This document shows positions 255 to 24,281 of a stretch of 64,000 bases of DNA, piece after piece. The translations under genes were made by a program, and so were the position numbers. Origin of the DNA: Bryobacterales bacterium (GTDB lineage Bacteria > Acidobacteriota > Terriglobia > Bryobacterales > UBA6623); contig JAJEHF010000133.1 of NCBI GenBank assembly GCA_022823865.1, positions 1-64,000 on the forward strand. The letters are read 5' to 3'. The notes under the pieces were generated by a model that was not told the origin of the DNA, searched no databases, and saw nothing but the letters and a program-made list of their open reading frames with translations. Within the stretch, counting starts at the first letter, position 1. Each line of letters starts with the position of its first letter.

Positions 255-1361
255 ATGGGCGCTGCGGTACAATCGAAACGGTCGACAGAAAGCAATAGTA
301 AAGCCTGCCCTAGTTTCGCCGACCGGACGTCTAAAGCCGATACTACTTCGATGCTCGCCAAACACTCCAATTCTCGCTCCCTCACGGATCTCGCCCCGGA
401 TGCAGTGAAGCCTGCGGTGGACCAATACTCCGTGCTGCAAGATGCTGGCTTGGAAGACAGGAAAGAGCACTATCAGTTGATGGTCACGCGCTATTACGAC
501 TTGGTGACCGACTTCTACGAGTTCGGCTGGGGGCAGTCCTGGCACTTCGCCCCCCGACGGCGAGGCGAGAGCTTCGAGGCGTCGTTGCTCAGGCATCAGC
601 TTTTTCTCTCCGATCGACTATCCCTGGGACCGGGGCTAAAGGTGCTCGACGTGGGATGCGGGGTAGGCGGGCCAATGGGCAATCTAGCCCGCCATTCTGG
701 GGCCAGCATTGTTGGCATCAACTCTAGTGCCTACCAGATCAAGCGCGCGAAGATGCACACCCGAGATGTCCAGTCGCTGTGCAGTTTCATCCACGGCGAC
801 TACATGCGGATTCCCGCCAGTGACCACCACTACGACGCTGCATTCACCATCGAGGCCACGCCCCACGCCCCGGACAAGACGGAGGCCTTCCGAGAGATAT
901 TCCGCGTTCTACGCCCAGGGGCTCGTTTCGCGGGCTATGATTGGTGTCTCACTGAGGCCTTTGACCCGTCGAACGCAGGGCACTTGCGGATCAAGAAAGA
1001 TATCGTGACAGGGACGGGGCTACCCGATCTCCCCCTGACGTCGGAAATCCGCCAAGCTCTGCGTATGGCCGGATTCGAAATCTTGGAAGCCCGCGACCTC
1101 GCACCCGAATCTCATCCGAAGACACCTTGGTACCGTGCTTTGCAGGGTCGAGACCTCAGCTCTAAGAGCATTCCGCGCACACCGATTGGCCGCGCCTTGA
1201 CCAACTTGGTTCTACGGGCCGGGGAGCGGTTGCGGATGGTTCCGGAGGGCACCGCCGCAGTCAGCACGCTCTTGAACGTGGGGGCGGACGCACTGGTCGA
1301 GGGTGGCGCAACCGGTGTCTTTACTCCGATGTTCTTCTTCCTAGTCCGCAAACCCGGGTGA
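255..1361 (+). CDS. smt: Sterol C-24 methyltransferase (SMT/ERG6 family)
   Basis: It should transfer a methyl group from S-adenosylmethionine to C-24 of a sterol side chain. The 368-residue protein carries the SMT hallmarks in order. The sterol-binding region YYDLVTDFYEFGWG is at about 80-93, the SAM-binding motif LDVGCGVGGP at 131-140, and EATPHAP at 200-206 followed by EIFRVLRPG. The C-terminal SMT domain has the GADALVEGG...FTPMFFFLVRKP pattern that general SAM methyltransferases lack. The first 50 residues are low in conservation and a start at the internal ATG 351 is possible. The ATG at 255 has a GAGAGG-like ribosome site. Only a weak promoter-like pair is visible (TTGCTC at 214, TTGAAT at 236). 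The stop lies 12 bp before the ERG2-like gene, so the two are probably one transcript. The methyl acceptor and number of methylations cannot be read from sequence. Confidence 0.93.
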   Translation: MGAAVQSKRSTESNSKACPSFADRTSKADTTSMLAKHSNSRSLTDLAPDAVKPAVDQYSVLQDAGLEDRKEHYQLMVTRYYDLVTDFYEFGWGQSWHFAPRRRGESFEASLLRHQLFLSDRLSLGPGLKVLDVGCGVGGPMGNLARHSGASIVGINSSAYQIKRAKMHTRDVQSLCSFIHGDYMRIPASDHHYDAAFTIEATPHAPDKTEAFREIFRVLRPGARFAGYDWCLTEAFDPSNAGHLRIKKDIVTGTGLPDLPLTSEIRQALRMAGFEILEARDLAPESHPKTPWYRALQGRDLSSKSIPRTPIGRALTNLVLRAGERLRMVPEGTAAVSTLLNVGADALVEGGATGVFTPMFFFLVRKPG

Positions 1362-1373
1362 TCGGGACGTTGC

Positions 1374-1949
1374 ATGAAGTACGTTTTTGACATTGAGGTC
1401 CTCAAGGAGATCGCGCGCTCACATCTCGATCTGCCGCTGGCGGACATGCTTCCCGCCATCGCCAAAGACCTGGCAGAAAGGTACCCCGGCCTGATCGAGA
1501 CCAAACCGGACTGGTTCTTCTCCAATGCCGGCGGCAGCATGGGACAGGTCACCATCCTGTATGCCTCGCTTCGGGAGTACGTGATCTTCTTCGGCAGTCC
1601 TATCGGCAGCGAGGGCCACACCGGTCGATATCCGTTCGTCGACGATAATGCGATCGTTCTGGATGGGGAACTCTGGTATTACGGCGAAGGCGACACCCAA
1701 CGGCAGGTGTACCTCCCCGGCGATGTCGTACATTTGCCAAACGGTGAAGCGAAGGGCTATCGCATGGTTGACCGCGGCTGGATCCTCGAGTATGCGCGTG
1801 GACCCATTCCCACGATGTTGCCGTTTGGGGTCGCCGACAGCCTGTTCAGCACCGTCGACCTCACCAGTTTCTTCCGCACGCTTCGGATCTACTTCCGGCA
1901 CCTGCTACGTTCTGCTCGAAGGCGATCAAGCGCTCGAGCGCGGGCTTGA
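1374..1949 (+). CDS. erg2: ERG2/sigma-1 receptor family sterol C-8 isomerase
   Basis: Family members shift the sterol B-ring double bond from delta8 to delta7. The 191-residue protein matches the family across most of its length: YVFDIEVL at the N-terminus, SMGQVTILYASLREYVIFFG at about 55-74, SEGHTGRYPF at 79-88, VYLPGDVVHLPNGEAK at 112-127 and LEYARGPIPTMLPFG at 138-152. Glu139 in LEYARG and Asp90/Asp91 align with the two acidic ligand-binding residues of sigma-1 receptor (Glu172, Asp126). Unlike fungal ERG2 and sigma-1 receptor, it starts directly at the folded domain with no N-terminal membrane helix. It ends in a short Arg-rich tail. It follows the methyltransferase by 12 bp, which places it in the sterol pathway. 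Members of this family in bacteria are uncommon to my knowledge. Confidence 0.92.
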   Translation: MKYVFDIEVLKEIARSHLDLPLADMLPAIAKDLAERYPGLIETKPDWFFSNAGGSMGQVTILYASLREYVIFFGSPIGSEGHTGRYPFVDDNAIVLDGELWYYGEGDTQRQVYLPGDVVHLPNGEAKGYRMVDRGWILEYARGPIPTMLPFGVADSLFSTVDLTSFFRTLRIYFRHLLRSARRRSSARARA

Positions 1950-1987
1950 CCCGGATAGCGCTGCCCTCGCTGTCGGACCACGACAAA

Positions 1988-2015
1988 GGCGCTCGCTCGC
2001 TTTCGGGGAAGCGCC
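1988..2015. terminator. Candidate bidirectional terminator between convergent sterol transcripts
   Basis: In the 71 bp between the ERG2-like stop and the cyclase stop, GGCGCT (1988-1993) pairs with AGCGCC (2010-2015). An alternative inner hairpin, CGCTT/AAGCG around TCGGGG, spans 1998-2013. No long T-tract follows on either strand, so intrinsic termination is uncertain. Confidence 0.4.
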
Positions 2016-2020
2016 CTGCT

Positions 2021-5000
2021 TCAAGCGGCCGCGTCGGCACTACGGAGGACGGGACTGGTCAGATCCATCCGGGCCTGGCGTCGCTGCTCGTAGAGGCCGA
2101 GCGCGCGAAGGGGGAAATACTGTCGGTATAGGACGTAGTCCAACAGCGCGGTGTGGAAAAAGACCCCGGCCATGTCTTGCTTTGGCCATTTCCCATCCGC
2201 ATTCTGGGTGCGAAGCAAGAACCGGACACCCCCCGAAATCGCCGCCCAATTCGGATCTTTCGCCTCAAGCAGCGCGATCAATGCCCATGCGGTTTGGATG
2301 ACCTGACTTTGTTCATGAGCCCTGTACCGGCCGGTCAGGCAACCGCTGTGATGCTCTCCCCACCCCCCATCTTTCAGCTGGCGGTCCAGCAGCCAATGGC
2401 ACGCCAAACGTAACGCCGGATCACTAGGACGAGCGCCGGCGGCAAGCAGGCCCCGGATCCCGAAGAATGTGCCGTAGATGAACTGAACACCCCATGCGCC
2501 ACGCCACGATCCATCGCTTGCCTGGGTCCTGCGAAGCCAGGCGTCAGCCCGCGAGACGGCGCTCATCACGGCCTGATTCTTGATTTGCGGAGAGTGTTCG
2601 TTGCAAGCGGCGATCGCCGCCAGGCAAGACGCCGTGCACTCAACATGGGAATGCTCGGTCATCGAATCGCCAAACATCTCGGACGGATTCAGCCATTCGA
2701 GACCGACGACGGAGCGCCGTGCCTCGTAGCTGCCGAAACCGCCGTCGCGGTTCTGGCCACGCAGCATGAAGCGGACCGCGTCGCCGAGCGCCACGGCGCT
2801 GATGGCCTGCTGGTCGGCGGCGATCATCCCGAGAACCGCCTCTGCGGTACAGTCGGTCACCGGCCAGCCATGCCAACCCCCGGCAAAGCACCAGCCGCCC
2901 TTGGGATCGGTCCGATAAGCTTCCCGAAATCCTTCGAAGCTATCGCTGACTTGCTGCTGGCGCAGGAAGTCGGATCCGCGCCGGAGGGTGTTGCGAAGCC
3001 CGTCAAACTCGGGCACGGTTGCCAGCGCCTGCAGGGTGAACCCGGTATCCCACGAGGCGCTTCTAGCCCCGGTGACTCGCGCTCCGGCTTCCTCGTCTTC
3101 CCAAAGCCAGCCATCGAGTTTCGCGAGCGCTTCGCGGCAGTCGGCGTCGTTCGGATCACGCAGCCACAAGGCAAGAATGTTGAGCAGACCGCTGACCGGA
3201 GAGATGCTCGTGTGGCTGGTGGCCCGCAACTCCCACCTAATCTGCTGGCTAATCGCTTCCATGCACTGGGCCCGCAGGCGTTTGCCGTGGAATCGTTCGA
3301 ATAGTCGCGCACACCGGTATCCGCATCGAAGCCACACACTGGGTCGCGCGTAGAGGTCCGCATCCCGCAGGCGATTGCGGCTCGCGGAAAAATCGATGTC
3401 GGCAAACCCTTGGCTGAAAAGCTCCTCTCTCAATGACACAACTGCGGGCGTGGCGGGTCCTTGGAACCGATGCGAATAAATCGCGGCCATTGCCATGTAG
3501 ATGTAACGGCTATGGCAATACCAATTCGAGGGATGTAACGGTATCCAGCGCGGCAAGCTCCACAGCTCCGGCAGGATGGCGTTTACGCCCCGCCAGTCGT
3601 AGAGGTTGACGATCGCCAGCCAGAACTTCCCCCAACTCGGGATCCCGAGCACACCCTCCGCTTGCACGAATCTCCGGGCCGGCGCGACTAACGGATCATC
3701 TCGCTCGACACCCAGCAGTCTCGCCGCGACGTATACCAAGGTTGTGACAAAGAGGTGGGGCGGCGAGTGCTCGTGCAGGCCCCATGTGCCTCCTCCGAGA
3801 CGGGTCTGCTCGAAGTGCCGCAAAACAAGCCGGCGTCGGCCGGGATCGAGCGGCCGCTGCATGACATGGTGGAGCAGCACATATTGGGCAGTGAGCATGG
3901 GACACCAGACCATCTCACCCTCCCAACCACCATCCTCGCCCTGGAGACTCATCAAGCGCCGGCTTGCACTCTTCAACGCCTGGCCAGCGTCGGGCGACGC
4001 GGCCTGCTCCTGGTGGACGACCCGAGAGCCGAGACCTCGCGATGGCATGGAAGCCAGAAAGGCGCGCTCCAGAGTCTCCCGGGCTCTCTCGTCCTTTTCG
4101 CCGGCCACGCCTTTCGCTTTGCGCAGCTGCCGAATGCCGCGCCAGAGCCACCCCAGACGGACGGCGAGCGCACGAACGGTGTCGCTGGCCCGCTGCCAGG
4201 CGAGTTGCTCAAAGGATCGCGGAACCTCCCCGGCAACCGCCCGCGCCGTTGTGGCGCAACATGCGAGACCCAGGCTGGCTATCGACGTGTCTTCGCAGGC
4301 CAGTAAACCTATGGTCTGGGCGCGGACTGTGGGCTTTTCTCTCCAACGCCGGTAGACCGCATGCCTGAGCGCCACCGCTTCGCCCCGATGATCGGCGAAG
4401 ACCTCGTAGAGACCCATGGCGAGCAACTCTGGAGCGCGGGTCGCCTGAAAGCGCTTACTGGCAAAGTCGTGAAAGTCCTTGCTCTCGACCAGCGCCAGAG
4501 CATCGCCGAAACCGAGAGTCATGCCCACTGCGGTCATCGGATGGTAGTGCCCTGCCGCATCGCCGATGAGCACCCGCCGCGGGGTGCCGTATGTGACGCG
4601 CAACCTGAGCGCGTTGGCCGCTGCTTGGAACCTCCGCGCCCGTAGCGCCTCGACGAATGCAGGCCGAAGTGTTTCCGGCAACCATCTGGTATACGAATCC
4701 GACAACAAGCCAACCCAGTCGCCATTTGAGTGGTTCAGGGGAACATCGACCACTACCCGCACACAATGCTCTCCCGAGCGATAGATGAGAATCGGACCTG
4801 GCCCGCCGCACACTACATGCCCGTAGTCCTCCAGCGGAAGTTCGACCCCGTCTAGAGTGACTCCGATCATGCGCGAACAGGTATTCGGACTTGTCGACAA
4901 TCCCAACGATCTCCGCACGATTGACGACCGGCCGTCAGCGCCGACAATCCGGTCCGCGTTCACGGAATGAGCGGAGCCATTGAGGGAAAGAGTGACCCGT

Positions 5001-5407
5001 CCGTCTTCGACCATACGCACCTGTGCGTTCAGCATGAAGTCGACGCCGGGCTCGCTTGCGATCGCTTCGCGCAGGCGCGAGACAAGTGCCGCATGTTCGA
5101 CGACTAGACCGTAAGACTCGTCCGGATAGGGAAGCACTATCGGCTCCGACCGATCTTCCGGAAACACCACGAATCCCCTGCCTTTGGTGCTGCGGGATTG
5201 TGTATCGACCTGTATCCCGACGCTGCGCAATGCTCGCAAGGCAGGCGGATGCAGCCACTCGCCCGCCAGTCGCTTCGCTGCTGTGGGGCTCGCTTCGAGC
5301 AGGGCCACCCGGGCGCCTTGCCGAGCGTGGGCAAGCGCGCACAAACACCCCGCCGGCCCCCCGCCGACGATGGCTACGTCGTAGCGCCGCGCCGTGGCGC
5401 CACTCAC
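2021..5407 (-). CDS. Squalene monooxygenase-oxidosqualene cyclase fusion
   Basis: One 1128-residue frame joins two consecutive sterol enzymes. The N-terminal module (about 1-430) is an FAD monooxygenase of squalene-epoxidase type, with GGGPAG at 15-20, VGADGRSS near 155 and the family motif GDAAGHYHPMTAVGMT from 282. After a roughly 45-residue linker, residues from about 475 to the end form an oxidosqualene cyclase. That part has IPSWGKFWLAIVNLYDW, WYCHSRYIYM, several QW-like repeats (QGEDGGW, QNRDGGFG, QASDGSW, QLKDGGW) and the catalytic VTDCTAE with Asp852. The DxDD of squalene-hopene cyclases is absent. The start is GTG 5407, overlapping the cyp51 TGA as GTGA, with AGGAGAG 9 bases upstream. 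The frame remains open further upstream, but only inside cyp51. The expected product is lanosterol, cycloartenol or parkeol; residues do not settle which. Confidence 0.93.
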   Translation of the reverse strand: MSGATARRYDVAIVGGGPAGCLCALAHARQGARVALLEASPTAAKRLAGEWLHPPALRALRSVGIQVDTQSRSTKGRGFVVFPEDRSEPIVLPYPDESYGLVVEHAALVSRLREAIASEPGVDFMLNAQVRMVEDGRVTLSLNGSAHSVNADRIVGADGRSSIVRRSLGLSTSPNTCSRMIGVTLDGVELPLEDYGHVVCGGPGPILIYRSGEHCVRVVVDVPLNHSNGDWVGLLSDSYTRWLPETLRPAFVEALRARRFQAAANALRLRVTYGTPRRVLIGDAAGHYHPMTAVGMTLGFGDALALVESKDFHDFASKRFQATRAPELLAMGLYEVFADHRGEAVALRHAVYRRWREKPTVRAQTIGLLACEDTSIASLGLACCATTARAVAGEVPRSFEQLAWQRASDTVRALAVRLGWLWRGIRQLRKAKGVAGEKDERARETLERAFLASMPSRGLGSRVVHQEQAASPDAGQALKSASRRLMSLQGEDGGWEGEMVWCPMLTAQYVLLHHVMQRPLDPGRRRLVLRHFEQTRLGGGTWGLHEHSPPHLFVTTLVYVAARLLGVERDDPLVAPARRFVQAEGVLGIPSWGKFWLAIVNLYDWRGVNAILPELWSLPRWIPLHPSNWYCHSRYIYMAMAAIYSHRFQGPATPAVVSLREELFSQGFADIDFSASRNRLRDADLYARPSVWLRCGYRCARLFERFHGKRLRAQCMEAISQQIRWELRATSHTSISPVSGLLNILALWLRDPNDADCREALAKLDGWLWEDEEAGARVTGARSASWDTGFTLQALATVPEFDGLRNTLRRGSDFLRQQQVSDSFEGFREAYRTDPKGGWCFAGGWHGWPVTDCTAEAVLGMIAADQQAISAVALGDAVRFMLRGQNRDGGFGSYEARRSVVGLEWLNPSEMFGDSMTEHSHVECTASCLAAIAACNEHSPQIKNQAVMSAVSRADAWLRRTQASDGSWRGAWGVQFIYGTFFGIRGLLAAGARPSDPALRLACHWLLDRQLKDGGWGEHHSGCLTGRYRAHEQSQVIQTAWALIALLEAKDPNWAAISGGVRFLLRTQNADGKWPKQDMAGVFFHTALLDYVLYRQYFPLRALGLYEQRRQARMDLTSPVLRSADAAA

Positions 5408-6810
5408 TGGAATACGCTCTCCTGTGACCGGCGCCGGTAGCGGAGGCGGCACGGCGTGACGGGACCAGTCACCCAGCTGCCGTAGTTCGGCGCGGGAAAG
5501 CCAGTGTCGAGTTCGAAATCGAAACGATCGAGCAAGACCGTCCAGATCGCCTTTAGCTGGAGGTACGCGAAGTGTTTTCCCATGCACTGGTGCTTGCCGC
5601 CCCCAAAACCGATCAAGGCGTAGCGGTGTTGCTTGTCCTCGCAAGCGGGGGGAGCGAAGCGATCGGGAGAGAACCGCCCCGGGTCGGCGAAAACGTGGGG
5701 CAACCGATGAGAGACCGCCGGCGAAACCATGGCCATGGTGCCGGCAGGCACGGCGTAGCCACGGTACTGCAGGGGCTTGAGCACCTTGCGGATCAGCATT
5801 ATCAGAGGCGGGTGCAGCCGCTCGCTCTCACGCACCGCATGTTCCAGCCTCACCTGTTGGTTGAGCTTCTCGAAGCTCACGGCTTCCCCATCGCGGTAGA
5901 TGTCTTGCAGCTCCTGTCTGATTCGCGCCAAGTATGATGGCGCCCTCAGGAGTTCCAGGCCGGTCCATGTCGCCAGCACCGCGCTGGTGTGCTGGCCCGC
6001 GAACAACACCGTCAGCAGGATCCCGGTGATCTCGTCATCGCTCAAAGCGCGGCCGTCACTGTACTGGGCATGCATGAGGGCCTGCATGAAATCGTCAGGC
6101 CGGGCCCCGGACAGCCGGCGGTCGGCCATGATTCGGCCAAAGATCCGGGCCACACGTCGTCGGGCCCGGTCGCGACTTCGATGCGCTGCAGTCGGAAGTT
6201 TCGGGAGAAAAAACCCAAGTGTGTTGATGCCCTTTTGCAGGTCGTGATAAGCCTCTGCAAAGCCCGCATCGACCTGGTCCCGCACCTCCTGCCCAATGAG
6301 GCAACGACTGGCGATATTGACGGTGAGCTCGTTCATCGCCTGCGGCAAGTCAACCTGCCCGTTCTCGCCGAGAGCGTCAGCGAACTGCGTCGTTTCCTCG
6401 GACATGATACGGGCGAATCTGCGCATCGCAGCGGCGCGCAGCGCCGGGAACAAGAATCCCAGCTGCTCGGCCATCAGTTCTGGGGAGACGTCGTACGCCA
6501 CGCCGCGCCCGAAGATCGGCACCGTGAACTGATAGACGGCTTTCGCGTTCAGTTGCTCTTCGGGTGCTCCGAAGTAGAAATCGTGGGCTTCAGGTCCCGT
6601 AAAGAGAACAAACTCGCGAGGGCCGAGTCGGAACTGGACGAGCTCGCCCTGCTCGCGCCAGCCACGGCTCAACATCGAGATCGGGTCTTTTTGGAATCCC
6701 GGCAGATGACCGATCAACGGCCACCCGCCCGCAAGTTCCGGAACGGCTGCACCTGCGGGCAGGGATGGCTGGGCTGGACGCCCAGGTTGCCACGTGCACT
6801 GCCGATCCAT
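5404..6810 (-). CDS. cyp51: Sterol 14-alpha-demethylase cytochrome P450 (CYP51)
   Basis: It removes the 14-alpha-methyl group of the cyclised sterol in three oxidations. The 468-residue protein has the CYP51-specific B-prime region YQFTVPIFGRGVAYD at 93-107 and the I-helix signature AGQHTSA. It also has ESERLHPP (ExxR) and the haem loop FGGGKHQCMG with Cys409. The GQHTS signature and B-prime motif separate CYP51 from other P450s. No N-terminal membrane anchor is present; the first 25 residues are Pro/Ala-rich, as in soluble bacterial CYP51s. The ATG at 6810 has GAGG about 9 bases upstream, within sequence that begins at the stop of the preceding reductase gene. Its TGA overlaps the GTG of the fusion gene. 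No ferredoxin or reductase partner is encoded in the window. Confidence 0.95.
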   Translation of the reverse strand: MDRQCTWQPGRPAQPSLPAGAAVPELAGGWPLIGHLPGFQKDPISMLSRGWREQGELVQFRLGPREFVLFTGPEAHDFYFGAPEEQLNAKAVYQFTVPIFGRGVAYDVSPELMAEQLGFLFPALRAAAMRRFARIMSEETTQFADALGENGQVDLPQAMNELTVNIASRCLIGQEVRDQVDAGFAEAYHDLQKGINTLGFFLPKLPTAAHRSRDRARRRVARIFGRIMADRRLSGARPDDFMQALMHAQYSDGRALSDDEITGILLTVLFAGQHTSAVLATWTGLELLRAPSYLARIRQELQDIYRDGEAVSFEKLNQQVRLEHAVRESERLHPPLIMLIRKVLKPLQYRGYAVPAGTMAMVSPAVSHRLPHVFADPGRFSPDRFAPPACEDKQHRYALIGFGGGKHQCMGKHFAYLQLKAIWTVLLDRFDFELDTGFPAPNYGSWVTGPVTPCRLRYRRRSQESVFQ

Positions 6811-6820
6811 TCCTCATTCC

Positions 6821-7921
6821 TCAATAGACGAACGGCAGCATCGAATAGCGCACCCGCTCGGTGTAACGCCCCCACAACTCGCCATACTTGGCCCGGCAGC
6901 GGCGCTCGTCGCGTCGCGAGCGATGCCACAACAGGCACGCTAGCCACGCCGGCAGCAGGTAGGGCACCCAAGATGAAAGCCAGGTCGTAAGGGTGAAGGC
7001 GAGATACACGCAGATCTCGCCCGTATAGTTGAGATGTCGTCCGATACCCCAGAATCCGGAGACTAGCAAGCGGCCGTCCAAAGACCGCGCCGGTCCGCCC
7101 CAAATCGTCACGCTGGGATCGCGCTTGAAACGGTGTTTCTGCTCGTTGGCGCCGCGGAACAGCCAGAAGCCGAGCACGAACAGCAGGACGAGCGCGGGGG
7201 CGGCGATCGGAGGCAGCGGTGCCGTCGGGTGGACGAGCCACCAGCCGCCGAGGCTGTAGAAGAATGGGACCAGCACGTAGTCTCCCCAAATCAACATCCA
7301 CCCCAAGCGCTCGCTGACCATGTCCCAGGTGTGCGTCATTCCGTGCTCGAACTGGAAGTAGTTGAGCACGTACAAGAATGTGAAGGCCTGGTAGAGCGCC
7401 ATGGCTAAGGTCAACTCACCGTAAGTCTCGTACTGCACCACGGCGAACGATGCGTTGAACAGCGCCAGTGCGATGAGAGAAGGACGGTAGCTGAAAAGCT
7501 TCAAATCCACACCGAACCAGGTCGGATTATGATCCACACCGAAGAAGAACCCCCGCCAGAATCCCGGTGATGCGCCGCGGGCCCGGACCCCCCGGAAAAA
7601 CAGCCAGCCGGACAGCGCGAATGCGAATCCGTTTGCCACGACGAACAAGGCGGCAAAGTGGGTATGCAGCGCTAACAAAGAGAACCAGCCGAAGAGTTCT
7701 GCGAGACATCCCGCGACCGCGGTGATCAGGAATAGCGCAAGGCCGTTGAGCTTGTAGGAGTGTGTTTGACCCTCGCCATCAGGCCCCGTAACTTGACGTC
7801 CGGGCAGAACTATCGAACCTAGAAACAAGACGCCGATAAACGCCAACATCATTGCCGCCGCCTCGAGCGCGGTGGTTGCCGACAGGGCGGACCACGCCGC
7901 CATCGCCTCAGGCGCGGACAC
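6821..7921 (-). CDS. ERG24/ERG4-family sterol reductase, probably C-14 reductase
   Basis: A polytopic membrane protein of 366 residues with about nine hydrophobic segments. It matches the ERG4/ERG24 reductase family through YVLNYFQFEHGMTHTWDMVSERLGW-type sequence, WGDYVLVPFFYSL, FRGANEQKHRFKRDP and LLVSGFWGIGRHLNYTGE. The C-terminal pattern is HRSRRDERRCRAKYGELWGRY...LPFVY. Such enzymes reduce delta14, delta7 or delta24(28) sterol double bonds with NADPH. Its place just before cyp51 favours delta14 reduction of the CYP51 product, but the sequence does not fix regiochemistry. The start is GTG 7921, 14 bp inside the Rieske gene, behind a very strong AGGAGGAGG site. It is shorter than eukaryotic ERG24 (about 430 residues). 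Confidence 0.88.
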   Translation of the reverse strand: MSAPEAMAAWSALSATTALEAAAMMLAFIGVLFLGSIVLPGRQVTGPDGEGQTHSYKLNGLALFLITAVAGCLAELFGWFSLLALHTHFAALFVVANGFAFALSGWLFFRGVRARGASPGFWRGFFFGVDHNPTWFGVDLKLFSYRPSLIALALFNASFAVVQYETYGELTLAMALYQAFTFLYVLNYFQFEHGMTHTWDMVSERLGWMLIWGDYVLVPFFYSLGGWWLVHPTAPLPPIAAPALVLLFVLGFWLFRGANEQKHRFKRDPSVTIWGGPARSLDGRLLVSGFWGIGRHLNYTGEICVYLAFTLTTWLSSWVPYLLPAWLACLLWHRSRRDERRCRAKYGELWGRYTERVRYSMLPFVY

Positions 7922-9005
7922 GGGAAGCCTCCTCCTCCCGGGCCAAGTGCTCCCGCCACTTGCGGACGGTCACCTTTTGGAAGGCGCGCACCACCGGATT
8001 GCTCTCGATGGGAGGGGCGTCCCAATGTCTCTCGTAACCCTCCTGCTCCGCTTCGACAGCAACTCGGTCCTGAGCGAGCAAGGGGCCGATGAGGACGCGG
8101 TTCGCGATCTTCAAGACCGTGGTCATCGCGAAACGGGGAATGCGCACGGGCAGCATAGGTATCTTCAGCGACTTGAAGTAGAACAAGAAGAACGCCCGAG
8201 TAGTGCGCTCGTCGATCGGCAGCACGAATAGCCAGTGCTTGATCTCGTCATCAGTGTTCGACCGCTGGTACGGGTATTGGTAGCAAAGCTCCATCCGGTT
8301 GGTGTCGACACGGTCGTGATCGACGAACAGTCCGGAGATGCGCCCGCGTCCGACCTGCGTGTCATAGGCGAGGTGCACGTCGTCACCGACAGTTTCGCAA
8401 CGGGTGAGATTGGCACCGGTGAAGGGACGGTATCGACGGTGCAGATAGGCGTGCGAGAAGTCGCTCACGTTGTCGATCACCATCGAGTGGTGGGCCGAGC
8501 AGGTGAAGCTCAGCGGCACACAGGCCCATCGCTTCGGTCCCTCGAGTTCGGGGATGTCCGGGATCTGGCGCAACGGCGCGCGCTCCGGGACACCCGGAAA
8601 CAACCAGACCAGACCGTAACGGACCTTTACGGGATAGGATCTGACCGAGAGCTTCGGGGCACTCTTCCGCCCGAAGAGGTCGGGAATCCTAGCGACCCGC
8701 CCGCTCTCGTCATACTCCCAGCCATGGTAGGCGCAGACGAGCCGGCAGCCCTCCACCTCGCCCAGGGAGAGTTTGAGCTGGCGGTGCAGACAGCGATTCT
8801 CGACCGCGTGAAACGAGCCATCCGCACTCCGAAACAGCGCGATCGAACGTTTCCAGAATACGATCTCGACCACCGTGCCAGGCTTGACCCGCCGCACCTC
8901 CTCAACCGCATACCAATAATCCGGGTCCATTCCCGTGGCGCGTGCTTGCTGCCGCAGGTTGCCCGCCTCCTCGAAGCCTGGTGGCATAGCTTGCGCCAGG
9001 CTCAT
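7908..9005 (-). CDS. Rieske non-haem iron oxygenase, sterol C-4 demethylase type (SdmA-like)
   Basis: A 365-residue Rieske oxygenase. The [2Fe-2S] ligands are Cys72-x-His74 and Cys91-x2-His94 (RCLHR and CAYHGWEY). The mononuclear iron site is DNVSDFSHAYLH at 178-189. In known bacterial sterol producers a Rieske oxygenase (SdmA) and an NAD-dependent reductase/decarboxylase (SdmB) together remove C-4 methyl groups; here the two genes are adjacent and coupled. An alternative is a DAF-36/Neverland-type sterol 7-desaturase. The true start is ATG 9005, overlapping the upstream TGA as ATGA; the frame is open for another 444 bases, but only antisense-free sequence inside the neighbouring gene is there. 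No ferredoxin or reductase gene is nearby. Confidence 0.88.
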   Translation of the reverse strand: MSLAQAMPPGFEEAGNLRQQARATGMDPDYWYAVEEVRRVKPGTVVEIVFWKRSIALFRSADGSFHAVENRCLHRQLKLSLGEVEGCRLVCAYHGWEYDESGRVARIPDLFGRKSAPKLSVRSYPVKVRYGLVWLFPGVPERAPLRQIPDIPELEGPKRWACVPLSFTCSAHHSMVIDNVSDFSHAYLHRRYRPFTGANLTRCETVGDDVHLAYDTQVGRGRISGLFVDHDRVDTNRMELCYQYPYQRSNTDDEIKHWLFVLPIDERTTRAFFLFYFKSLKIPMLPVRIPRFAMTTVLKIANRVLIGPLLAQDRVAVEAEQEGYERHWDAPPIESNPVVRAFQKVTVRKWREHLAREEEASRVRA

Positions 9006-10144
9006 ATCGCGACCCCTTCCGGTGTGACCCCTGCGCCTTGGCTTGGAACGAAGTCTTGCCCCTCGCCGTCGGCGTTCGCGCGCGGAGGCTTCGCGCGAGG
9101 ATTCGCGATTGCCTTGCGATCGTAGTGGAACTTGTAGGCCGCGTGAACCGCAGCGCGGATGGTGGTTGGCTGATAGCCGAGCTCCCGCCTTGCTTTGCCG
9201 GTGTCGGCATGACGGCGTTTCCTCAGCAGCCGAATGGCACCAGGGGTGAAACGCTGGGGGAAGCTCGGGTGAAATCGGCTCAGATAAAAGCTCGCCGCTT
9301 CTGCAAAGACGAGCATCATGTGAGTCGGGACCCGCCGATGCGGTCGCGGGACACCAGAGACTTCCTCGAACAGATCCAAGATCTCGGATATGGTCTTGTA
9401 TTCGGTGCTGAAGATGTACTTTTCGCCCGACCGTCCCCGTTGCATGCACAACACGTGTCCTTCAACAATGTCTCGTGCCGCAACAAACTCGAACCCGCCA
9501 TCAACATAGGCATGGAGCTTGCGGTTGGAGTAGTCGCACAGGGTCCTGCCCAGTCGCGAGGGGAAATAGTCGCTGCCCCCAACCACCGCACAACACGTTG
9601 CAACCACGATGTCCTGCCCCTTCGCCGCGGCACGCCAGCATTCGTGCTCGACAAGCGCCTTGCTGCGCTCATACGGCATCGTGCGGTCCATGGGATAGAA
9701 CTGCATGGTCTCGTCGCTGGGAGCTGACGGATCGTCCAAGTCGTGGCCGACCGCGCTGAAGGAGCCCGTCACCACCACGCGGCCAGCCCCCGCCTCCCGC
9801 GCCGCTTGCAGCACGTTGCGGGTCCCGAGAACGTTGCACTCGAATAACTCCCGGCGATGGGCGCGATTGCCCTCGATGGTTGAGACCTTGGCCGCGCAGT
9901 GATAGACGCCCTGGCAGCCTGCGAGCGCGTGCTTGGTGGAGTTCAAGTCCCGAATGTCGCCAACCGAACGCTCGACATCGAGTCCTTCCAATGCTTCGTC
10001 GCTTTCCCCGCGTTTCAGAAACACCCGGACCCGAACGCCGTCGTCGAGCAGTCGGCGCACGAGATTAGCCCCTAAATGACCGGTCGAGCCAGTGACGAAG
10101 ACCGGCGGCATCGATGAGCCGACAGTGCTTGATCGTGAAATCAT
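9002..10144 (-). CDS. 3-beta-hydroxysteroid dehydrogenase/C-4 decarboxylase-like SDR (SdmB-like)
   Basis: An extended short-chain dehydrogenase of 380 residues. The Rossmann motif TGSTGHLG is at 18-25 and the catalytic YERSK at 158-162, with the 3-beta-HSD/NSDHL layout. It would oxidise the 3-hydroxyl of a 4-carboxysterol, with decarboxylation, or act as the sterol 3-ketone-forming step with the Rieske partner. The start at ATG 10144 is supported by TGGAG 9 bases upstream; the internal ATG 10111 lacks a ribosome site. It is the first gene of the five-gene minus-strand operon. Upstream sequence has an imperfect inverted repeat around GAGATCTC (10161-10176), which could be an operator. A weak TATACT (10210-10215, minus strand) is the best -10 candidate. 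Confidence 0.87.
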   Translation of the reverse strand: MISRSSTVGSSMPPVFVTGSTGHLGANLVRRLLDDGVRVRVFLKRGESDEALEGLDVERSVGDIRDLNSTKHALAGCQGVYHCAAKVSTIEGNRAHRRELFECNVLGTRNVLQAAREAGAGRVVVTGSFSAVGHDLDDPSAPSDETMQFYPMDRTMPYERSKALVEHECWRAAAKGQDIVVATCCAVVGGSDYFPSRLGRTLCDYSNRKLHAYVDGGFEFVAARDIVEGHVLCMQRGRSGEKYIFSTEYKTISEILDLFEEVSGVPRPHRRVPTHMMLVFAEAASFYLSRFHPSFPQRFTPGAIRLLRKRRHADTGKARRELGYQPTTIRAAVHAAYKFHYDRKAIANPRAKPPRANADGEGQDFVPSQGAGVTPEGVAI

Positions 10145-20683: not shown

Positions 20684-23600
20684 CTAGAAGGTGATCCGCA
20701 TGCCGAACTCCATCACTCGGCGCCCGCCGTAGGTGCCTGTGATGAGGCCGAAGTTGCCGGCGCCGACCGAAGTGTTCGGCAGCGCGAAATGCGGGGTGTT
20801 GGTCATGCTGAAGACTTCGGCGCGGAATTGCGCGCGCCACCTCTCGCCCCAGTAGAAGTTCTTCGCCAGCAGCATGTCCAGGTCAAACAACCACGGCCCG
20901 CGAATGCCCGGCAGGTTGCGGGCAGCGTCGCCGAGGGTGAATCGATCCGGAACCGCAAACGCGTCCGGGTTCAACCAGTCGATCGCGCCGTTGAAGTTCG
21001 GCGTGGGCGCGCTCTGCGTCGGGTGCTCGAACGGAGCGCCAGTCAGGTTGGGCCGCAGCACGTGACCGAACGAGAAATCGCCCTTGATGTTCTGGCCGCC
21101 CTGCACGATCGTTCCGATATACCCCCCGCTCTGCATCATGTTGATGGCGGACACCTGCCAGCCGCCCGCGATCGCATTGAGGAGCTTGGGCCACTGCTTG
21201 CCCCAGCGTCGGTTGTGGCCGAAAGGCAGGTCGTACATCGGCGCGGAAACCACTCGGTGCGGCAGCCGGCTTGCCGAGCTGGCCCGCTCGTTCCTCAAGT
21301 CGTACACCGACTGCGGGTAGTAGTTGGTCCCGAAGGTGTCCGCGTTCCCGATGAACCGGATGTTGTCGATCCACTGCGTATGCGTGTACGAGATCGTCCA
21401 ACCGATCCCGTTCCTCATGCGCCGTTCGGTCTTGAACGTGGCAGCGTAGTAATTCGAGATCCCCCAGTTCGGCGACATCAGCTGAATCTGGTCGGCGCGG
21501 CCAGCCCACGCCGTCCAGGGCAGGAAGAGTTCCTTCTGGGTGGCAGTGACTCCAGGAGCGTTGGCCGCCGCCAGGTCATCGGGGTGAATCTGATTGATGT
21601 TGATGTTGTTGTAGGCTTGGTGCCTGGCTAGGGCCCCGAGCAGACCGAACTCCCAGAGCGTGTTCTTCCACCGAGTCTGGAGCGTGAGGTTGAAGTTCTG
21701 CGAATAGGGCAGAACTCGATCTTCGTTCCAGTACTGGATCGTGGAAGTCGGGAAGCGGGTCCCAATGGCACCGAACCCTCCGTTCAGTTCCTCCTCGGGG
21801 ATGTCGTCAAGGGCTCCCGCTGGCAAGCCATCGCGAAGGTAGCTGTTGAGGCCATTGCGCCGACGGAAGATGTTGTCGAACCCTGCACGGCCGGGCTGAA
21901 TCGAGTTGCGGTCGTATGGATTGCCGAAGAAGATCCCGAACCCACCTCGGAGCACCATGGATGAGTCCGCCTTGAGGCGGTATGCGAAGCCGAAACGCGG
22001 TGCGATGTTGTTCTTGTCCCATTGCCACAGGTACTTGCCCGTGCCGTCCCTATTCGGGAAGAGCACCTTGCCGATCGCTCCTTCGGGTATCCCGTTCTGG
22101 CCGGCCAGCGGGTGCGGGCAGAACTCGCAGAAGCCGTTCATGCGCCCGCCAACCTCATAGATGGGCGTCTCGGTTTCGTAGCGCACGCCGAGATTCAGCG
22201 TGAGCCTTGGCGTGACCCTCCAATCGTCTTGGAAGTATCCCGACCAGTACTTGATCCGTTTGCCGATCGGCGCGGCGACGCGCGCGTCCAGATTCCAGAC
22301 CTGACCTAGCAGGAAGTCAGCGAGTCCGACGCCGGTGTTGACATCCCCGCCACCCCTCTCTGGCCATTTCCTTGTGTACTCGCCCCTAGATTCCAGTTGC
22401 CAGAAGGCTGCGGTCTGGCGAGTTCATTGCCTTGAAAGGATGTGTACTTGCCCCCGTACTTCAGGGTGTGATCGCCATGAATGCGGGTGAAGTTGGCCTC
22501 GTAGTCGAAATTCGTGAAGGCAGCCACCCGCTTCGCATAGCCGGCTCCGATGCCGGTCATAGGAATGCGGCTGTTGAAGTTGAATCGCGGGAACGCTTCC
22601 CCGCCCTTCTCAAACCCGGGCATTCCGAGCAGCTCGGCGTAGTCCGTGTCGCAGCAATCACCAGAGAAGCGGTCGATGTAGACACGGTTGAAGCCGACCA
22701 ACACGGCCACGAAATTCGTGGGACTGAACATGTAGGTGTTGTTCAACCCCCAGTTCTGGCGGAGTTGCTCGTTGTTGATCGCGTTCGGGTCGGCCACGCC
22801 GTAGCCGTCTGAATACGCATCGACGACCGCGTTCTTGCTGATGATCGTCCTCAGGAACGTGCTCCACTTCGCGGTGTAGTTGTGGTTGATCTTGATCGTG
22901 TTGTACGTCCGCGTCACGTTCCGCGGAATCTGCTCGACCCAATTCCCGGATTGGTTGGCTGGGTTGCGCGGTTCCCAGCCGGGCGTTGGCTGGGGCAGGT
23001 AGCTCAGCGCCTTGACAGCGACCGGGTCGAACCGACCGGCCGGAATCTGTTGGTTCGGAAACGGATCCGACAGGCGCGGCCTGGTGAACGAGCCCGCTTT
23101 GCGAGTGTCCGGGTCATGGATCGGCACGAGGACGGGATTGCCGCGCCGGTTCTGGAAAGCTCGCGAGAAATCGCCGGTTCGGAATTCCGGGCGACCGACG
23201 CTGCGAATCCGATCCCGCGTGAACGGATTCAGGAACAGGTCGGAGTTGACGAAGAAGAACGTCTTGTTCTTCTTGATCGGTCCGCCAATCGAGACCCCGC
23301 CTTGGTTGCGCCGCAGCGTGGGCTTGCTCACTTGGTTCCAGCCGATCGCGTCAAAAACATCGTTGCGCACGAAGTGGTAGAGGCTGCCGTGGTACTCGTT
23401 GGTCCCGCTTCTGGTGGCCGCCTGGACGGCACCAGCCGAGCTGCGCCCATACTCGGCACCCATCGAGTTCACCTCGACCTTGAACTCCTGCATGGAATCA
23501 ATCGGCGGGACCATCTCGATGTTCTGGACGCCGAGGCCGCCGCGCGTGTTGTTGATTCCGTCGATGTAGGAACCCGCGGACCTAGTGCGCCCGCCGCCAA

Positions 23601-24132
23601 TGGAGATGTTTCCGTTACGCGACCGGTATGCGCCCGGAACAAGGTTGACCAAATTGAAGATGTTGCGTCCGGCAAGGGGCAGCTCCATCATCTGCTCGAT
23701 TTGCACCGCCGAGCCCACGGCGCCGGACGTGGTCTGGACCTGCACCTGGGCGGCGCTGACCTCGACTGTCTCGGTCACGGCGCCGATTTCAAGTGCGAAT
23801 GACTGTTGGATTTCGGAACCGACGTTGAGTCGGAGTCCCAGCACTTCCGCGCGCTTGAACCCGTCGGATTCGGCAGCGATGTTGTACTCGCCGAAGAGCA
23901 TGTTCGGCATGTAATACACGCCGTTGATGCCCGTCTCCGTCGTCGTGACGACACCCGTTTTCGCGTTGGTGATCTCCACCTTCGCCCCGGGTATCACCGC
24001 TCCCGTTTCATCAGTGACGGTTCCATTGATGGTTCCGCGGTCTCCCTGGCCCCACAAGGCCACCGGGATCAGCACAGCGATCACGAAGAAGCTGTGCAGG
24101 CTGAACCCACTGAGCACTCTGCGCGTGTTCAT
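20684..24132 (-). pseudogene. Oar-like TonB-dependent receptor, disrupted by a one-base frameshift
   Basis: An outer-membrane receptor split into two frames. The upstream part runs from ATG 24132 (behind GGAGGAG) through a signal peptide and a carboxypeptidase-regulatory domain (GTINGTVTDETGAVIPGAKVEI), a plug (LPLAGRNIFNLVNLVPG) and part of the barrel. The downstream part holds ADFLLGQ, YFQDDWRVTPRLTLNLGVRYE and the rest of the barrel to TGTYGGRRVMEFGMRITF. The frame changes at a C4 run, 22383-22386. One extra base there restores a single 1149-codon frame and a continuous family match (GNWNLG then EYTRKWPER). It is either a sequencing or assembly error or a recent mutation. Such receptors import large substrates or act in surface adhesion; the ligand is unknown. 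Confidence 0.85.
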
Positions 24133-24281
24133 ACGATCTCCTCCATCGGAAGCTTCGCGACACGCGCCTAGGTTTGACTGGCTCACGAGGACAGCGCCCC
24201 GCTGCAAACCGACACGGCGCGGTAGCCAAGATACCCTGCGGAACCCCTTCTTGCTCTACTCGCGATCAACTCCCGGCGGCG

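Follow-up and report, generated by a model that had tools for sequence, protein, structure and literature searches.

Can a single bacterium carry, in one place, nearly all of the genes needed to turn squalene into a side-chain-methylated sterol? The question is raised by seven genes near the beginning of a 64,000-nucleotide stretch of DNA (hereafter the window; bases 1–64000 of contig C72, GenBank JAJEHF010000133.1) from a genome assembly labelled Bryobacterales bacterium. A first-pass annotation of the letters had proposed seven contiguous sterol genes within 10 kb, and frame analysis together with a Pfam search bears this out: seven coding frames span positions 255–10144 with no unrelated gene interspersed, and Pfam and structure matches agree with the identities first suggested for all seven, the Pfam matches lying well outside what chance would give. 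We assign the genes to the msb/CSG type of bacterial sterol cluster, which is probably shared horizontally, place them in an Acidobacteriota host near Bryobacterales and expect them to specify a route to a fungus-like (episterol-like) sterol; we give this reading as a whole a probability of roughly 0.78. The analysis established what the genes are homologous to, which of them are present, in what order they stand and how they are distributed; they are as follows, with the best family and structure matches in brackets.

255–1361, plus strand: SMT/ERG6-like sterol C-24 methyltransferase, 368 residues (PF08498, 1.5e-20, plus a methyltransferase domain)
1374–1949, plus strand: ERG2-type sterol C8–C7 isomerase, 191 residues (PF04622, 1.6e-60; sigma-1 receptor, 1.3e-34)
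2021–5407, minus strand: squalene monooxygenase–oxidosqualene cyclase (SqMO–OSC) fusion (SE, FAD_binding_3, SQHop_cyclase N and C)
5404–6810, minus strand: CYP51 sterol 14-alpha-demethylase, 468 residues (p450, 4e-59; CYP51 structure, 2.6e-104)
6821–7921, minus strand: ERG24-type sterol C-14 reductase, 366 residues (ERG4_ERG24, 1.5e-65; 4quv, 4.9e-66)
7908–9005, minus strand: SdmA-like Rieske oxygenase, proposed to oxidize a C-4 methyl (Rieske, 3.2e-21; VanA_C, 3.7e-13)
9002–10144, minus strand: SdmB-like short-chain dehydrogenase/reductase (SDR), proposed for C-4 decarboxylation and 3-keto reduction, 380 residues (Epimerase, 8.1e-34; 3Beta_HSD, 1.1e-17)

Transcription on the minus strand runs from the SDR through the Rieske oxygenase, the ERG24-type reductase and CYP51 to the fusion, which ends at 2021. 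These five genes overlap or nearly do so in an operon-like manner (the gap between reductase and CYP51 is ten bases) and converge with SMT and ERG2 on the plus strand, where ERG2 starts 12 bases past SMT. A GTG at 5407 overlaps the CYP51 stop and an ATG at 9005 overlaps the SDR stop, so the longest open reading frames, of 1207 residues for the fusion (from 5644) and 513 residues for the Rieske protein (from 9449), are probably too long at the 5′ end; the fusion probably starts at the GTG, giving 1128 residues, and the Rieske protein at the ATG. The minus-strand succession (sdmB-like, sdmA-like, erg24, cyp51, SqMO–OSC, all on one strand) is the core order of the msb/CSG clusters, and a further trait of that type, an SMT lying 3′ on the opposite strand, is also present, here with ERG2 in between. 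Only 254 bases of the contig precede SMT, so the cluster could extend beyond the contig end.

The methyltransferase has both a Sterol_MT_C domain (73.5 bits against a cut-off of 21.7) and an S-adenosylmethionine-dependent methyltransferase domain, and is the single PF08498 match in its genome. ERG2 is likewise the single PF04622 match, at 204.5 bits against a cut-off of 21 and across positions 21–205 of the 210-position profile, nearly the whole domain. Profile searches, the check that had been suggested for SMT, ERG2 and the cyclase, place all three inside sterol families (PF08498, PF04622 and SQHop_cyclase). Eukaryotic ERG2 and sigma-1 receptor proteins carry an N-terminal membrane helix. 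The window protein begins at the conserved domain (its alignment with the sigma-1 receptor starts at query residue 2), and its open frame is only 195 codons long, so such a helix is lacking. At the positions of E172 and D126 of the human sigma-1 receptor, which we take to be its site residues, an alignment without fungal ERG2 finds the Glu kept (as it is in 4 of 7 bacterial relatives) and the Asp position occupied by Ala. An EBP-type isomerase alongside ERG2 was rejected, as no EBP-family match was found in the genome, which is 94.3% complete; ERG2 is thus the only C8 isomerase candidate found, with about six percent of the genome possibly missing.

The fusion protein joins a squalene monooxygenase (SE, 1.8e-21, with FAD_binding_3; squalene monooxygenase structure 6c6n, 6.4e-21) to an oxidosqualene cyclase (SQHop_cyclase N, 1.4e-48, and C, 1.4e-51; human lanosterol synthase, 7.3e-135). 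The cyclase exceeds the cut-off of the wider TIGR01787 model (509 against 323) and, in human numbering, retains H232, the DCTAE motif and V453; its product is probably lanosterol. For the P450, the closest solved structures are those of CYP51, and the best structural match of the reductase is the delta(14)-sterol reductase 4quv, by homology to which it would be a sterol C-14 (delta14) reductase. A second ERG4/ERG24-family reductase lies elsewhere in the genome (contig C30, 8623–9660), 30–37% identical to its best-listed matches among the cluster loci; it adjoins a DUF1295 protein, between genes for ATP synthase subunit A and NADH dehydrogenase.

From this gene set we infer each reaction, the reaction order, the product and its use. 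Squalene would come from the cell's own HpnCDE-type enzymes: HpnC, HpnD-like and HpnE genes lie adjacent on contig C53, with HpnC and HpnE above their cut-offs, so squalene is probably available in the cell. The fusion protein would convert squalene to oxidosqualene and then probably to lanosterol; CYP51 would remove the C-14 methyl, after which the ERG24-type reductase would reduce delta14; the SdmA-like and SdmB-like proteins would together take off one or both C-4 methyls; ERG2 would shift delta8 to delta7; and SMT would methylate C-24. The end product would be a delta7 sterol resembling episterol, its side chain 24-methylene, either 4-desmethyl or 4-methyl, serving as a membrane lipid, with the C-24 methylation and the delta7 nucleus being likely features. 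Ergosterol as the end product was rejected, as the FA_hydroxylase family (ERG3, ERG25) had no match in the same 94.3% complete genome and hence no ERG3- or ERG25-type protein was found; with no ERG3-type desaturase found, the likelier product of the two is an episterol-like sterol. The host likely makes hopanoids as well; a separate squalene–hopene cyclase, above its cut-off, is encoded on contig C13.

How does this cluster compare with known systems? The msb cluster, from a gammaproteobacterium living in Melophlus sponges as a symbiont (Mohanty 2020, PMC7074536), is described as sharing the SDR, the overlapping Rieske oxygenase, the sterol reductase, CYP51, a bifunctional squalene epoxidase/cyclase and SMT, with squalene synthase elsewhere. 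It differs in belonging to another phylum, in comprising six proteins as described, without ERG2 and with flanking end genes said to be unlike sterol genes, and in being linked by its authors to sarasinosides. The CSG of Ircinia symbionts (Kelly 2022, PMC9531527) shares the ERG24–CYP51–LSS core, with DFR and a hypothetical gene 5′, usually SMT or FDFT1 3′ on the opposite strand, and ERG2 in several cases; it is reported from 115 of 537 Ircinia metagenome-assembled genomes (MAGs) across 11 classes and 10 phyla, Acidobacteriae included, with low omega values, and its transfer is argued. SdmA and SdmB are not annotated in that account, whereas here both are assigned and eight modules are counted per locus. 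Metagenomic SMT clusters (Brown 2023, PMC10070321) also place SMTs near sdmA, sdmB and other sterol genes, including a fused SMO/OSC, and most of the SMTs assayed were reported to work in vitro (8 of the 10 sponge-metagenome enzymes and 12 of the 14 environmental ones), three bacterial SMTs reaching the isopropyl side chain; the main text of that study, however, contains none of ERG2, isomerase and Acidobacteri as a whole word. Finally, Calothrix sp. NIES-4105 is reported (PMC10202945) to hold a single 21-kb cluster for oxidosqualene formation, cyclisation, C-14 demethylation, C-8 isomerisation and SdmAB, but the word methyltransferase is absent from the main text. The first-pass annotation had stated that known sterol-making bacteria usually have fewer steps, several of them scattered; this agrees with E. 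salina, whose sterol genes are reported as scattered (PMC10202945), but not with the compact bacterial clusters already in print (PMC7074536, PMC9531527, PMC10070321 and PMC10202945), nor with the counts that follow.

To what extent is the gene set shared among bacteria? A cyclase scan of genome contigs returned 225 relatives, and the best 80 of the 225 loci were analysed, with module presence scored by tblastn under set bit-score limits within the fetched stretch. Cyclase was present at 80 of the 80 loci, monooxygenase at 79, P450 at 60 (including one weak match on the opposite strand), reductase, SdmA-like and SdmB-like modules at 57 each, SMT at 43 and ERG2 at 6, and the SqMO and OSC parts lay within one open frame at 73. 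The six-module core (sdmB–sdmA–erg24–cyp51–SqMO–OSC, in order and on one strand) was found at 54 of the 80 loci (32 Pseudomonadota, 8 Chloroflexota, 7 Nitrospirota, 2 Rhodothermota, 1 Acidobacteriota, 1 Bacteroidota and 3 with no named phylum); 13 of the 26 non-core loci had less than 6.1 kb upstream of the cyclase, so that the core could not show. A rare or unique cluster was rejected on these figures (225 relatives, the same core at 54 loci). A sponge is named in the titles of 2 of the 80. All eight modules, in turn, were found at 5 loci (L017, L019, L037, L043 and L046). At the genome level, ERG2 was detected in 7 of 50 genomes (50 of the 80 having been searched); in three of these seven, a single TGA lies within the alignment. 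Of 396 Acidobacteriota genomes, 6 had a cyclase match at 1e-60 or better, counting the host's own and two with just 31% identity; ERG2 turned up in 1 of 297 genomes of that phylum, again the host's own.

Other arrangements were also seen among these loci. More than one SMT match lies beside the cluster at several of them (a second at 41–42% identity in L002 and L006, two in L007 and L070, and three in L049), and nine loci hold SqMO and OSC without the other core genes despite enough upstream sequence (L013, L023, L036, L051, L053, L056, L062, L065 and L069; four of the nine are Actinomycetota). These nine may make simpler sterols or may hold the remaining genes elsewhere. At the Binatota locus with the closest cyclase (L045, 82% identical), the sdmA-like and sdmB-like genes are relocated behind SMT on the other strand.

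Whether the cluster has moved between lineages was assessed from a cyclase tree of 84 rows (quick method, SH-aLRT support only) and from base composition. Named Acidobacteriota cyclases (L029, L060 and L080) fall in three separate places, with starred branches forcing three changes, and L080, whose Bryobacterales genome is the host's closest neighbour in rpoB, is grouped with a Dehalococcoidia row (support 97, starred). Nearest by path to the window cyclase are Binatota (L045), gammaproteobacterial and Nitrospira rows. G+C content at third codon positions (GC3) is 0.70–0.79 (mean 0.74) in the cluster genes, against 0.76–0.84 (mean 0.80) in ten other window genes. Tree and GC3 pattern fit the transfer argued by Kelly 2022 (PMC9531527), and the cluster is probably shared by horizontal transfer, although some MAG contigs among the relatives may be wrongly binned.

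The host genome comprises 6.07 Mb in 231 contigs. An rpoB tree (quick method, 27 of 30 genomes, frames fixed by tblastn; L045, L009 and L057 had no rpoB match and were left out) groups it with a Bryobacterales bin (100, starred) and then with a Thermoanaerobaculia bin (100, starred), and the cyclase of a genome of the window's phylum (G360) is identical, in the tree rows, to that of L029, titled Thermoanaerobaculia; together, the rpoB placement and the cyclase identity assign the host to the Acidobacteriota. Nine of the ten window neighbours scanned gave a family match, bacterial families among them. Within the window, two adjoining minus-strand frames at 20684–24207 match positions 1–337 and 388–836 of PF25183 (outer-membrane barrel), as if a gene had been interrupted. 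Elsewhere in the genome (contig C166, 1500–9500), RpoB and RpoC seemingly share one open frame of 2941 codons, an RpoB stretch followed by an RpoC-like one; two further RpoC motifs were not found. In a Bryobacterales relative (L108), the frame is likewise open past RpoB (1997 codons).

Several observations weigh against an msb/CSG-type, horizontally shared route to an episterol-like sterol. The Rieske protein best matches the SdmA model NF052579 and the SDR the SdmB model NF052578, at 402 and 299 bits, respectively, and we name them SdmA-like and SdmB-like because both scores fall under the equivalog cut-offs of 600 bits. The cyclase scores 719 bits against TIGR03463 (2,3-oxidosqualene cyclase), below the cut-off of 851, and has Ala at position 381 and His at 449 in place of the eukaryotic lanosterol synthase set (T381, C/Q449), and the HpnD-like protein reaches 243 bits against a cut-off of 279. 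As to transfer, the cyclase rows still group by phylum (over nine phyla the tree needs 12 changes, where shuffling gives a mean of 34.4), codon usage is alike in the cluster and its ten neighbours (cosine 0.97), and the window cyclase branches from an open fork without a star, on which L123, from a genome of the same phylum, is found too, so that transfer of the window's own copy is not established.

The weakest point is the outcome at C-4, since the three SdmAB pairs characterised from bacteria do not behave alike: as reported (PMC10202945), the Methylococcus pair removes one C-4 methyl, the E. salina pair none without SdmC, and the Calothrix pair, by itself, both. Loss of both methyls by the window enzymes is uncertain, and the first two precedents, with the sub-threshold SdmA-like and SdmB-like scores, would suit a 4-methyl or 4,4-dimethyl sterol as the cluster product in place of a 4-desmethyl one, perhaps the aglycone of a sarasinoside-type saponin; a similar gene set, msbA–F, has been tied to sarasinosides, with other redox roles proposed for MsbA and MsbB (Mohanty 2020, PMC7074536). 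We regard this as unlikely, if the strongest of the alternatives: the Calothrix precedent runs the other way, the sarasinoside link is its authors' own proposal, and none of the seven cluster genes, the part of the genome covered on this point, encodes a glycosyltransferase. The earlier claim that these genes lead from squalene to a sterol methylated at C-24 holds as regards a near-complete gene set and a likely delta7, C-24-methylated product, but its '4-desmethyl' is not established, given the differing SdmAB pairs and the scores under cut-off.

Considerably less probable is a cyclase that yields cycloartenol or another skeleton, making the route plant-like at its start: H449 agrees with the cycloartenol set (Y381/H449/I453), but V453 corresponds to lanosterol, at the position whose residue tracked the product across the bacteria that Wei 2016 examined, and MsbE was termed a lanosterol cyclase likewise from its valine (Mohanty 2020, PMC7074536). 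Eukaryotic contamination or an assembly chimera, which the location of the cluster at the very beginning of contig C72 and its slightly lower GC3 might suggest, is hardly credible and was rejected in favour of the bacterial source first assumed, on the stop/start codon overlaps along the operon, the bacterial families among the neighbours, the rpoB placement in Acidobacteriota, the same core at 54 of 80 bacterial loci and a genome only 1.9% contaminated at 94.3% completeness.

An msb/CSG-type cluster leading to an episterol-like sterol, then, is apparently intact and bacterial here and is not rare; what makes it of interest is that all eight modules are present and that the host belongs to the Acidobacteriota. 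Steranes with alkylated side chains are interpreted as marks left by early eukaryotes and sponges, and a near-whole route within 10 kb offers a clean test case for the de novo synthesis of alkylated sterols by bacteria, which in a myxobacterial isolate was described as still to be confirmed (Brown 2023, PMC10070321). While the general point is already in print, a well-delimited eight-module example from the Acidobacteriota and a frequency count of the full set are added here. A bolder proposal, which is possible although we put the odds somewhat against it, is that a single Acidobacteriota cell alone makes a C-24-alkylated, C-4-demethylated delta7 sterol, that the core cassette moves as one block between at least six phyla and that the anchorless ERG2 is an occasional addition to it. 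If true, Acidobacteriota could be a source of ergostane-type steranes and, if the one SMT of that cell methylates repeatedly, of stigmastane- or isopropyl-type steranes as well.

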